DNA of 64,000 bases from Prochlorococcus sp. AG-442-N17 (GTDB taxonomy: Bacteria; Cyanobacteriota; Cyanobacteriia; PCC-6307; Cyanobiaceae). This document shows positions 4,099 through 6,765 of this stretch, in pieces; position 1 is the first letter of the stretch, and each line of letters starts with the position of its first letter. The position numbers were made by a program, and so were the translations under genes. Where the stretch lies: contig QCPY01000001.1 in assembly GCA_003212375.1 (NCBI GenBank), positions 124,001 through 188,000 on the forward strand, in the 5' to 3' direction. The notes beneath the pieces are model-generated. The model had not been told where the DNA came from. It saw only the letters and a list, made by a program, of their open reading frames with translations, and made no database searches.

Positions 4099-4557
4099 TT
4101 AAATTTGCATTCTTACTGATTTACTAATAAGTGGTATCTCAGGTTCAACTCCATTAATGCAATGAAAAATTGCGAAAAGAAAAATAGAAAGTGTAAAGAC
4201 AAATGCTATTAAACCAAATTCCGCTAAAGGAAAGATACGTAGAAGATAAGTAATTATGATAAGAGCAATATCAAGGAGTAAAGCTTGGCATGCATTATAT
4301 CTTACAAAGTAAGGGACATCTGGATTCCTAACAACACCAAAAAACAACATTAAAAAAAATAATAATCCCCCAAAAGGTAAAGATCTCTCAACTATCGCTA
4401 CTGGAAAAGTTAGATATAAAAGAATTTTTAAGAAAGAAAATTTATAAAACAAATAATTTCCAAAAGGTAAAGAAGCCTTCAATGGCAAAGTATAAAAGGC
4501 AACTGACGAAAGTCTTTGTATTATTTGATTCAATTGAAATTTATTCCTAAGCATCAT
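4099..4557 (-). CDS. Tic20-like (Ycf60) membrane protein
   Basis: 152 residues with about four membrane segments. The signature N-P-x-V-P-Y-F-V-R-(F/Y)-N-x-x-Q-A-L-L-L-D-I seen here (N-P-D-V-P-Y-F-V-R-Y-N, then Q-A-L-L-L-D-I-A-L) is that of the Tic20/Ycf60 family. The plastid member is part of the inner-envelope protein import channel. In cyanobacteria the role is unresolved; the protein is expected in the plasma or thylakoid membrane. The C-terminal G-V-E-P-E-I-P-L-I-S is also typical. Monocistronic by appearance. Confidence 0.8.
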   Translation of the reverse strand: MMLRNKFQLNQIIQRLSSVAFYTLPLKASLPFGNYLFYKFSFLKILLYLTFPVAIVERSLPFGGLLFFLMLFFGVVRNPDVPYFVRYNACQALLLDIALIIITYLLRIFPLAEFGLIAFVFTLSIFLFAIFHCINGVEPEIPLISKSVRMQI

Positions 4558-4635: not shown

Positions 4636-5025
4636 ATGAGAATCTTACATACCATGCTGAGAGTTGGTGATTTAAATAAATCTATTGATTTTTATGTTAA
4701 TAGATTAGGGATGACTCTAATAAGAAGAAAAGATTATCCTCACGGAGAATTTACTTTAGCTTTTGTTGGTTACGGATCTGAGAAAGATAATACATTAATT
4801 GAGCTAACTCATAATTGGAAGAAAAAATCAGAAGACTATGAGCTTGGGAATAAGTATGGGCATATTGCTATTGGTGTAAAGGGTATACATAGTATTTGCA
4901 AAAATCTAGAAGAAAACGGATGTAAGATTACAACTAAGCCCAAGACAATGAAAAATAGCACTACTGTACTAGCATTTGTTGAAGATCCTGATGGATATAA
5001 GATTGAACTTATTGAAAGAGATTAG
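4636..5025 (+). CDS. gloA: Lactoylglutathione lyase (glyoxalase I)
   Basis: 129 residues, the usual length of a bacterial nickel-type glyoxalase I. The four metal ligands are in place: H5, E56, H76 and E124, with the N-terminal M-R-I-L-H-T-M-L-R-V and the C-terminal E-D-P-D-G-Y-K-I-E-L-I signatures. It isomerises the methylglyoxal-glutathione hemithioacetal to S-lactoylglutathione in the cytoplasm, removing a toxic by-product of sugar metabolism. Stands alone on the plus strand, followed by 270 bases with palindromes and hairpins. Confidence 0.93.
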   Translation: MRILHTMLRVGDLNKSIDFYVNRLGMTLIRRKDYPHGEFTLAFVGYGSEKDNTLIELTHNWKKKSEDYELGNKYGHIAIGVKGIHSICKNLEENGCKITTKPKTMKNSTTVLAFVEDPDGYKIELIERD

Positions 5026-5059
5026 TTTTGGTGATTTCAGGATTTAATGAAAATATATA

Positions 5060-5073
5060 TGATCATATGATCA
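5060..5073. promoter_or_regulatory. 14-bp perfect palindrome
   Basis: TGATCATATGATCA is a perfect palindrome downstream of gloA. It could be a binding site for a dimeric regulator or form a small cruciform; it contains two GATC sites. No gene starts directly beside it. Confidence 0.4.
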
Positions 5074-5138
5074 AAGATTATGAAAATCAGGCTCAAAATG
5101 TAAAGATTTTGATCCATAAAATTTTTATTTATCTATAA

Positions 5139-5176
5139 CCTTGGCCAACCGAAGGTCGGAATTTTTAGGCCAAAGA
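5139..5176 (+). terminator. Nested GC-rich hairpin with T-run
   Basis: An inner hairpin CCGA-agg-TCGG (5149-5159) is followed by AATTTTT. An outer pairing of TTGGCC (5141-5146) with GGCCAA (5168-5173) encloses it. In an otherwise very AT-rich spacer this may be the gloA terminator or the 3' end of a small RNA. Confidence 0.45.
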
Positions 5177-5220
5177 TAAAATAGTTACCATATTTTGAAA
5201 GATTTTAATAAATAATACAA

Positions 5221-5264
5221 TCTATACATAGTCTAAATAGAATATGTAGACAATCTATATAGAA
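5221..5264 (+). promoter_or_regulatory. Operator-like array, TCTA..TAGA sites phased at 11 bp
   Basis: Sites begin at 5221 (tctatacatag), 5232 (TCTAAATAGA), 5243 (degenerate, tatgtagac) and 5254 (TCTATATAGA, perfect palindrome). Steps are 11 bp, so all face the same side of the helix. The array ends 32 bases before the ATG of a gene encoding a ribbon-helix-helix domain, a protein type that binds such tandem short sites and usually represses its own gene. Confidence 0.55.
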
Positions 5265-5295
5265 TGAAGTATTCTTAGTTTACATCTAAAAATTC

Positions 5296-5793
5296 ATGTC
5301 CAAGAATTGGTCTTACATAAGAGATGAATGGCTAAAGAGCACAACTATTGCGGAAGATGATGCAAAGTGGGCGTTAGAAGCCTTAATTAATAGTGAAGAA
5401 GAGTTTTTTGAAATAGAAAGAAAATTTAAAAATAATGAAGATGCATTAGGACAAGTAAGAAGTTTAAAGAAGAAAGTTAAAGAAACTTTTTCCTCAAAAG
5501 AAATAAGCTTAGATGATATTGCTTTAAATACTTCTAATTCGAACAAAGTTCAAATTTCCGTTCCATCAAATCTTAATTACCTTTTAAAGGTTTGGGCAGC
5601 TGCAGAAGGCCGCGATCTATCAAGTGTTGCGTTTCAGTGCTTAGAAACTGGTCTAAGAGAAATGAAAAGCAAAGGTTCGATTCCATCGATAGCAATAACT
5701 AGATATGATTCTGCATGTCAGAAAAGAATTGCATTAGCAGAAGTGAATAATTTATTAGAAAAATATGAAATTTCTCAAAACAAGCAAAAATAA
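5296..5793 (+). CDS. Ribbon-helix-helix (CopG/Arc-like) DNA-binding protein
   Basis: 165 residues. Residues 1-75 are acidic and helical, with an E-E-E-F-F-E-I-E-R-K coiled-coil-like stretch. Residues 84-125 fit a ribbon-helix-helix unit: strand K-V-Q-I-S-V-P, helix L-N-Y-L-L-K-V-W-A-A-A-E-G-R, turn D-L-S-S-V, then helix A-F-Q-C-L-E-T-G-L-R-E-M. A C-terminal helix follows. RHH proteins dimerise and insert the strand into the major groove. Immediately upstream lies a phased TCTA..TAGA array, suggesting autoregulation. The next gene begins two bases after its stop, an arrangement like antitoxin-toxin or regulator-effector pairs. The exact family is not recognised. Confidence 0.6.
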   Translation: MSKNWSYIRDEWLKSTTIAEDDAKWALEALINSEEEFFEIERKFKNNEDALGQVRSLKKKVKETFSSKEISLDDIALNTSNSNKVQISVPSNLNYLLKVWAAAEGRDLSSVAFQCLETGLREMKSKGSIPSIAITRYDSACQKRIALAEVNNLLEKYEISQNKQK

Positions 5794-5794
5794 A

Positions 5795-6187
5795 ATGGCC
5801 CTACAAAAAATAAATAAAGAATGTCGCAAATTAATTTCATCATCTTTTAATTTAGCTCCTCAAAAATCTAAATTTGGAATAGTTTATACTCTTTACTCTG
5901 ATAGATTTAATTCAATTGAAGTAGGCTATGCTGAAAATGATAAAATCCTGCAAACTAAGGTTTCGCAAAGTGATTTAATTTTATTAGATAAAAAAATAGG
6001 TAGAGCAAAAGACCTTGATTTATTAATAAAAACATTAAATGAATTTAATATCTATTTTTCTAGGAAATTAACTTTTAAATACTCAGATATTCTAATTAAA
6101 CATTTATCAACTTTAGGTTGGCCCGTGGGGCGATCGCTTTACAAACAGAGAAAAATTAATAAAAAACTTTCATTTGCTCAAATTTAA
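5795..6187 (+). CDS. Hypothetical protein, possibly GIY-YIG-like
   Basis: I start it at ATG 5795, just after the previous stop; an upstream ATG at 5765 would overlap the neighbour by 29 bases. 130 residues. The segment G28-I-V-Y-T-L-Y-S-D-R-F, then I-E-V-G44-Y-A-E-N, resembles the strand pattern of GIY-YIG/T5orf172 domains (compare the clear member at 25426-25983), but the catalytic Arg and Glu cannot be placed with confidence. The C-terminus is basic (Y-K-Q-R-K-I-N-K-K). Co-transcribed with the RHH gene, so it could be its regulated partner. Function unproven. Confidence 0.5.
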   Translation: MALQKINKECRKLISSSFNLAPQKSKFGIVYTLYSDRFNSIEVGYAENDKILQTKVSQSDLILLDKKIGRAKDLDLLIKTLNEFNIYFSRKLTFKYSDILIKHLSTLGWPVGRSLYKQRKINKKLSFAQI

Positions 6188-6657
6188 ATATAATCGCATC
6201 CTAAAGTTTCCTTAGTTTCTCTATTCGTAAATGGATTAGTTCCAGAAGCATCTTTACAAAATTCTCTTACGATATCTCTTGGTAAGTAGACATTTGTGAA
6301 ATCTGCCCCTTTAATTTTTACATTTTCAAATTGAGTACTATAAGCAAAAGAATCCTCTAAATTAGTATTTGTCAAATCAGTTCCATCCAACACCGCTGAA
6401 TCAAGAGTAACTTCTCTTAAATTAGAATTACTTAAATTAGTATCCTTTAATTTTGCTCCATACAAACTTGCATTTTGGAGATCGCAATCTGATAAATTTG
6501 CATCCTGTAAATCTGTTAAATAAAAAGTCGCACCTTGTAAGTCTGATCCCGAAAAATCAACTCCTAATAATGATTGTTTTCCATAATCTAATGCTGCGAA
6601 GCAAATAGATGGAAATAATAGAGCAATTGAAAAAATAATCAATATTATAAATCGCAT
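6184..6657 (-). CDS. Secreted pentapeptide-repeat protein
   Basis: 157 residues: a signal peptide (about residues 1-21, ending C-F-A-A), then roughly 18 pentapeptide repeats of the A-(D/N)-L-x-x type at residues 30-120, predicted to fold as a right-handed quadrilateral beta-helix. A C-terminal cap follows with E-F-C-K-D-A-S-G-T-N-P and L-G-C-D, whose two Cys probably form a disulphide. This layout is typical of cyanobacterial thylakoid-lumen pentapeptide proteins, whose molecular role is not established. Its stop overlaps the end of the convergent gene by four bases. Confidence 0.8.
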   Translation of the reverse strand: MRFIILIIFSIALLFPSICFAALDYGKQSLLGVDFSGSDLQGATFYLTDLQDANLSDCDLQNASLYGAKLKDTNLSNSNLREVTLDSAVLDGTDLTNTNLEDSFAYSTQFENVKIKGADFTNVYLPRDIVREFCKDASGTNPFTNRETKETLGCDYI

Positions 6658-6765
6658 TTAGATATAGCAAAGTTTAAATAAATTCTAACTTCTTAAGTTG
6701 ATTACATGAAATATTTTTTTTACTGAATGCTATATTTATTGATATTAAAAATATAAAATTAGATT

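Follow-up and report, generated by a model that had tools for sequence, protein, structure and literature searches.

Does the short run of phased repeats ahead of a small gene in Prochlorococcus act as the operator of that gene's own product, and how far does its control reach? The locus lies in a 64,000-nucleotide stretch of the genome of Prochlorococcus sp. AG-442-N17 (hereafter the window; the assembly is 1.18 Mb long and 72.6% complete), where an earlier note had predicted an operator array, a ribbon-helix-helix (RHH) repressor binding it and a regulated partner. Comparison of genomes confirmed that the array is real and strongly conserved. We put at about 0.8 the probability that the RHH protein encoded behind it uses the array as its operator, with dimers that would line up along it and shut down their own operon of two genes; the genes predicted to be regulated are the RHH gene and the gene adjacent downstream. 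The features concerned, in window coordinates, are:

5220-5263, forward strand: predicted operator array of four 11-base-pair (bp) units (5220-5230, 5231-5241, 5242-5252 and 5253-5263), with the genus consensus unit ATCTATAnAGA
5232-5241: dyad TCTAAATAGA in unit 2, an exact TCTAnnTAGA
5254-5263: dyad TCTATATAGA in unit 4, an exact TCTAnnTAGA lying between the likely -35 and -10 hexamers, at a distance of 22 bp from the unit 2 dyad
5247-5252, forward strand: likely -35 hexamer TAGACA, inside unit 3, called from conservation
5270-5275, forward strand: likely -10 hexamer TATTCT, 17 bp after the -35 hexamer, called from conservation
5296-5793, forward strand: RHH gene for a predicted autorepressor of 165 amino acids (aa), with N-terminal helices, an RHH domain at residues 81-128 and a long C-terminal helix
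5536-5679, forward strand: codons of residues 81-128, including the predicted DNA-reading strand K84-V-Q86-I-S88-V-P
5795-6187, forward strand: partner gene, 130 aa from the ATG at 5795 (the open reading frame itself is longer, from 5765), of an orphan family with a GIY-YIG/T5orf172-like predicted fold

The array in the window and across Prochlorococcus

Read in 11-bp steps, the letters over 5220-5263 are ATCTATACATA / GTCTAAATAGA / ATATGTAGACA / ATCTATATAGA. The earlier note's TCTA..TAGA array at 11-bp steps is borne out, with four steps and two exact dyads, and its end lies, as claimed, about 32 bases ahead of the ATG at 5296. The note had called one site degenerate; unit 3 does deviate, but it carries the likely -35 hexamer, and units 1 and 3 both lack the full TCTAnnTAGA. 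Single TCTAnnTAGA sites are not rare in the window, the two dyads of the array being the only exact matches against 2.06 expected. For a pair of dyads at 22 bp, of which the window holds one exact case, 100 dinucleotide shuffles never produced one with zero or one mismatch and averaged 0.08 each when two were allowed; at up to three mismatches the count is uninformative (one observed versus 0.93 expected).

The RHH gene was found in 112 of 151 genomes of the genus, including 48 of the 51 that are at least 90% complete; its closest named relatives are labelled Prochlorococcus, with 2 of the best 80 of 201 loci labelled uncultured Synechococcaceae. The 112 matched genomes yielded 108 upstream sequences, leaving out G103, G023 and G101 (contig ends) and G016, and six further upstreams brought the number scored to 114, the short L085 and L099 being scored separately. 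The earlier note had looked to homologues in other strains for a check, and there the best TCTAnnTAGA-N12-TCTAnnTAGA ends in the identical place, exactly 32 bases ahead of the start codon, in 113 of 114 upstreams; in the exception, L082, the best double dyad sits one unit further upstream, with 4/16 mismatches. All 16 fixed positions are matched in 56 of 112 upstreams and at most two are mismatched in 103, although the upstream 90-mers are all distinct from one another (112/112). Array columns hold 1.48 bits on average, compared with 0.38 between -200 and -101 and 0.79 between -100 and -78 (110 upstreams), and self-matching at lag 11 gives z = 15.9 (42 upstreams; here and below, z is taken from mononucleotide shuffles and ignores relatedness).

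The predicted operator overlaps a putative promoter, since TAGACA falls within unit 3 and TAnnnT follows 17 bp downstream. The former occupies -49 to -44 in 108 of 112 orthologue upstreams and the latter -26 to -21 in all 112, with a 17-bp spacer between them; from their conservation and the known consensus, we take the hexamers at 5247 and 5270 to be of the sigma-70 type. Units 1 and 2 lie upstream of the -35 hexamer, unit 3 holds it and unit 4 falls in the -35/-10 spacer. TCTA stands in phase at units 1 to 4 in 92, 93, 11 and 97 of the 112 upstreams, and in none at a control position shifted by one base; unit 3 is likely a compromise between operator and promoter.

Could this conservation reflect promoter and untranslated-leader constraint alone, the 11-bp pattern being incidental? 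Some of the best-conserved positions are those of the hexamers, and conservation extends to the leader (-19 to -1), whose columns average 1.32 bits. Outside the hexamers, however, units 1, 2 and 4 hold 1.38, 1.45 and 1.61 bits per column, with in-phase TCTA at the frequencies just given, and lags 11, 22, 33 and 44 stand out in the Synechococcus-type arrays described below despite their other sequence and larger number of units. We consider this explanation highly improbable.

The predicted RHH protein and a second spelling of the array

The monomer model of the RHH protein has a mean predicted local distance difference test (pLDDT) score of 84.7, rising above 90 in the helices at residues 91-104 and 108-126; K84-P90 is extended, with no strand assigned in the monomer, and the block 81-90 has a pLDDT of about 70. 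Residues 81-128 align with RHH domains, including those of PutA (Z 6.3, root-mean-square deviation (rmsd) 2.0, 44 of 44 residues), CopASO (Z 6.5, rmsd 1.6, 45 residues), CdbA (Z 6.0), AmrZ (5.9), CopG (5.7) and Arc (5.7). At the sequence level the assignment is weak: of 30 members of the protein's own family, 11 match the Pfam family RHH_5 (best E-value (E) 0.011), and PHROG 582, an Arc-like repressor, is matched at E = 0.04. A PDB sequence search returned no solved relative and no RHH protein among its 7 matches, and beyond the family a profile search of 291 cyanobacterial genomes gave, with E limited to 0.001, a single weak match (L123, E = 3.5e-4).

Within the family, 33 of 151 genomes, from 16 of 59 genera, match the RHH gene at E up to 0.001, a few of them weakly. 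In seven other genera, the regions upstream of 14 full-length orthologues give z of 10.8 at lag 11 and 7.2 at lag 22, and the unit is nearly identical to that of Prochlorococcus (profile correlation 0.95). All 14 score at least 31 with the unit profile, and 22 of 22 Synechococcus-type upstreams score at least 32 with a profile of their own, each profile having been trained on the very sequences scored (the genus profile on 40 of the 112 upstreams); among 200 shuffled controls the maximum was 16.8 with the TCTA-type profile and 7.0 with the Synechococcus-type profile. One genus upstream, L111, scores 16.6, slightly under the highest shuffled control.

In the Synechococcus-type genus the array is spelled differently. 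Its unit, nnnAG(T/C)n(A/G)C(T/C)n (in short AGnnRCY), has a whole-unit correlation of 0.27 or less with the Prochlorococcus unit, yet the 22 arrays give z of 19.5, 17.4, 12.5 and 7.3 at lags 11, 22, 33 and 44. They comprise at least five units, and the -35 and, mostly, the -10 lie within units. Throughout 17 of the 22, TTGC and TAC..T occur without variation at a distance of 17 bp (a single sequence having a 1-bp gap), a promoter-like pair inside the array; these 17 were chosen by eye for a common register, with L253, L261, L263, L264 and L265 excluded (other register or degenerate last unit) and L262 shifted by one unit. Array spelling thus differs between the two lineages, and the 11-bp spacing and an embedded promoter-like element are kept. 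Common to both is AG-N3-CT once per 11 bp, as AGAnTCT across the unit joint in Prochlorococcus and within AGnnRCY in the Synechococcus type, which we infer to be the dimer-binding core.

The predicted DNA-reading strand changes together with the operator. It is K-V/L-Q-I/V-S at 51 loci with TCTA-type arrays and K-L-T-V-S at 29 loci with AGnnRC-type arrays, and operator class tracks the strand residue (Q86 or T) in 80 of 80 loci, under a search pattern that admits Q or T alone and with six genomes represented twice in the T class, where 23 of 29 rows are distinct. The distant L060 (33% identity) keeps Q and has a TCTA-type score of 19.4, just above the highest control (16.8). Because the Synechococcus-type genus combines the same layout with another unit sequence, protein and operator appear to have drifted together.

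The two lineages also differ in protein length. In the Synechococcus-type genus, 22 of 23 genomes carry a 78-aa form without the N-terminal helices, the form seen at the Synechococcus-type loci L053-L059 and L246-L267, so that this part of the 165-aa Prochlorococcus form was gained or lost within the family. A distant RHH relative at L285 (genome G179), with an N terminus that is greatly extended, comes with no match to the partner, and neither array class scores there.

Reach of the array and predicted self-repression

Across 15 near-complete Prochlorococcus genomes, the double dyad, at up to two mismatches, sits at the RHH gene in all 15; elsewhere in them it has 11 further forward matches, one of which overlaps its own array, against 50 for a control pattern. 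We also scanned 22 genomes (16 of the genus with the gene, 2 of the genus without it and 4 of other genera) with a model of 61 positions, R1, scoring 150 of about 1,700-2,740 first-look candidates per genome. All 16 gene-bearing genus genomes, 4 of which are in the training alignment, gave the gene's own promoter as their best match (E 8.6e-10 or lower). R1 found no second strong site in the 22 genomes, any other place in these 16 having E of 0.008 or worse; four weak matches that were inspected all overlap open frames. The two gene-less genus genomes, G025 (97% complete) and G036 (92%), lack the array, their best R1 matches having E of 0.0125 and 0.0188. In other genera, R1 ranked the own promoter first, weakly, in G226, G188 and G153.

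A second model, R2, run on 14 genomes, found the own promoter strongly in nine Synechococcus-type genomes, nearly every one of which, if not all, had gone into its training alignment, and weakly in G237, G557 and G289; the arrays of the weak cases are visible by unit scoring or by eye. The gene-less G570 gave nothing better than 0.27 with R2, and G175 gave no match. These scans suggest that the array serves its own operon, with no visible regulon, and single isolated units may occur elsewhere. A MatP-like chromosome organiser was considered and dropped because the Foldseek match to MatP is weak (E about 1, probability 0.18 or less) and each genus genome has one strong site.

In the mechanism that we propose, each 11-bp unit would bind one RHH dimer through its beta-ribbon, and successive dimers, all on the same side of the DNA and separated by a turn of the helix, would touch their neighbours and may bind cooperatively. 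Bound dimers would cover the -35 hexamer and the spacer, and in most Synechococcus-type arrays the -10 as well, excluding RNA polymerase; since the -35 lies in unit 3 and unit 4 in the spacer, occupancy of the array would result in self-repression. The RHH protein would in this way limit expression of its own gene and of the GIY-YIG-fold-like partner, and the partner may tune repression, by analogy to RelE with RelB.

Some RHH proteins activate as well as repress, and two units do lie upstream of the -35 hexamer, where they could form an activator site. The geometry nevertheless favours repression, with unit 3 on the -35 and unit 4 in the spacer, and with the -10 in a unit in 17 of the 22 Synechococcus-type arrays, and activation of the operon by the RHH protein seems to us distinctly unlikely. 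It is similarly improbable that a different regulator binds the array while the RHH product acts elsewhere. Sequence does not prove which protein binds, but the array accompanies the gene from genus to genus, its unit sequence shifts along with the RHH strand residue throughout the 80 loci, and the two gene-less genus genomes have no array.

Besides this limit on what sequence can prove, several observations count against self-repression through the array. In the window, the lag-11 self-match of the 44-bp stretch is ordinary (20/33; 16 equally good stretches compared with 17.3 expected), and because it is unexceptional in such AT-rich DNA, the window sequence by itself only suggests an array, the weight falling on the exact double dyad and the orthologues. 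Lags 9, 13 and 15 are raised as well in the genus upstreams (z 5.4-5.7). Sigma-70-like matches in 5026-6660 do not exceed shuffles (7 versus 9.8), so the promoter call rests on conservation. The RHH domain named in the earlier note agrees with the predicted fold, but the match of the window protein to RHH_5 is weak and below the cut-off (E = 0.037; 14.2 bits, cut-off 26); the fold scores are modest (Z 5-6.6), and because unrelated helical proteins score equally high, tying on the rest of the model, the Z-score alone is no proof of an RHH domain. The correlation of operator and strand residue is a single evolutionary event and not 80 independent cases, and because there was one switch we treat the co-change as a hypothesis to which no statistic is attached. 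In G160, R1 ranks the own promoter second (0.0169, against 0.0144 elsewhere), and in genus g31 the partner occurs in three genomes that lack both this RHH gene and the array. With these points included, the operator, repressor and partner predicted in the earlier note are well supported by comparison.

The partner gene, known systems and the neighbourhood

The partner gene starts 1 base past the stop codon of the RHH gene in the window. In other genomes its start overlaps or adjoins that stop, and several of the Synechococcus type have possible -4 starts; its position is conserved out to that genus. It occurs in 31 of 151 family genomes, 28 of which also have the RHH gene, and the RHH-search matches without it (5 of 33) are the distant G179 and four weak ones (E 2.8e-4 to 8.9e-4). 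At the three g31 loci (L282, L283 and L284 in G180, G221 and G248), a divergent frame upstream of the partner contains SQ[IV]N[IV]R[IL]S, a strand resembling that of an RHH protein, which suggests that the regulator may have been replaced or inverted there. A second, weak match to the partner profile lies away from the operon at G226:C1:1365638-1365934 (E 7.0e-6).

The partner model has a mean pLDDT of 76.7. In a viral library its best fold match is a Bro-N domain protein at E 6.8e-4, the sole match below 0.001, followed, among the best 50 matches, by many T5 Orf172, GIY-YIG, Bro or MUG113 entries from E 1.0e-3 with probability 0.97-1.00. Against the PDB, the top Foldseek chains are unrelated and Slx1 reaches E 7; Z-scores are weak, at 4.6 for VIA Slx1, 3.9 for UPF0213 and 2.5 for UvrC. 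With the GIY-YIG catalytic positions assigned by eye, the alignment shows the GxIY tyrosine kept in 16 of 18 rows, the YIG tyrosine and the conserved helix arginine not being evident, and the catalytic residues of the partner look incomplete.

The pair might also be read as a toxin-antitoxin module, the RHH protein being antitoxin and autorepressor and the partner toxin and co-repressor. A pair of genes whose stop and start overlap or adjoin, the promoter-overlapping array and the shared presence of the genes would fit, and there is a precedent in RelB/RelE, for which PMC2812701 describes RHH dimers on same-face repeats and a partner that strengthens repression. The partner, however, has no Pfam family above the cut-off and no match in PADLOC, and it diverges faster than the regulator (18-32% versus 33-58% identity to the window protein across genera); the gene is present in 48 of 51 good genus genomes, and phage records hold no match to either protein, nor plasmid records to the RHH protein. 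We judge such a module rather unlikely. A mobile origin was rejected on the same phage and plasmid searches.

Arc, MetJ and CopG are RHH proteins that read short repeats by a beta-ribbon, with step lengths and sequences that differ from those of the present array; Arc and CopG are both among the structural matches of our model. The nearest known geometry is that of ParR/parC of plasmid R1, in which an RHH protein is combined with 11-bp direct repeats arrayed around a promoter: R1 ParR requires no fewer than two 11-bp repeats, and these flank a promoter (PMC9426499; Dam and Gerdes 1994, by its title). Unlike parC, the array here is chromosomal, common to those 48 of 51 genomes and the one strong site in each genus genome searched, and it has no adjoining ParM-like ATPase, its neighbours being the GIY-YIG-like-fold gene, a glyoxalase I gene and a pentapeptide gene. 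RelB/RelE likewise places same-face RHH dimers on short repeats in its own promoter (PMC2812701), but relO consists of four 6-bp repeats, and the partner here matches no RelE family.

Autorepressing RHH regulators do exist in cyanobacteria: TrcR (All0854) of Anabaena is a self-repressor that occupies its own promoter across the -10 and the start of transcription. The likeness is one of description, and the present system differs in its 11-bp array and its one strong site per genus genome searched. FciC, from the CA4-A island of marine Synechococcus, is an RHH protein of similar size (55-67 aa), but is encoded in a pigment-acclimation island with AraC-like regulators, and is again likened by description alone (PMC3877281). 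Among the titles and abstract beginnings that came up in searches of open-access papers, some of them aimed at other subjects than this gene, none describes this gene or array, and PMC4215834, in its available part, does not concern it. The kind of regulator is known; this particular operon, predicted to regulate itself, with an operator switch that arose in nature and a partner yet to be characterised, did not turn up in the literature searched.

Taken further, and tentatively, since we hold it somewhat less probable than its opposite, the locus may be an operon passed down vertically among picocyanobacteria, whose two products, an RHH repressor tiling an 11-bp promoter array and a GIY-YIG-fold-like partner, form an undescribed regulatory or DNA-acting pair. 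In that case the specificity of operator and repressor would have switched jointly at the Prochlorococcus-Synechococcus split, in the inner letters of the AG-N3-CT core and in Q86 versus T, with promoter and spacing kept. If true, this would be a natural record of an autorepressor changing its code while keeping self-control. To our knowledge, Prochlorococcus has few regulators, most of them without a known site; the present comparison yields one with a predicted exact operator, a likely promoter, an adjacent partner and more than 100 natural site variants. It makes testable both how operator specificity can change in an autoregulated DNA-binding protein without loss of self-control and what role an RHH/GIY-YIG-like pair, present in nearly every good genus genome, plays in a very common photosynthetic lineage.

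Around the operon, an Rfam scan was empty, and the remaining features are:

4099-4557, reverse strand: Tic20-like gene
4636-5025: glyoxalase I gene, the upstream neighbour of the array
5141-5166, forward strand: terminator-like hairpin with a run of T, separating the array from the glyoxalase gene; no more than a pattern match (1 found versus 0.7 expected)
6184-6657, reverse strand: pentapeptide-repeat gene, a neighbour of the operon at 50 of the 61 loci in the comparison

Near the start of the window, three frames (96-557, 1396-1644 and 1645-1929) share a similar tail, GxRGGxY...GxPYRxYF.
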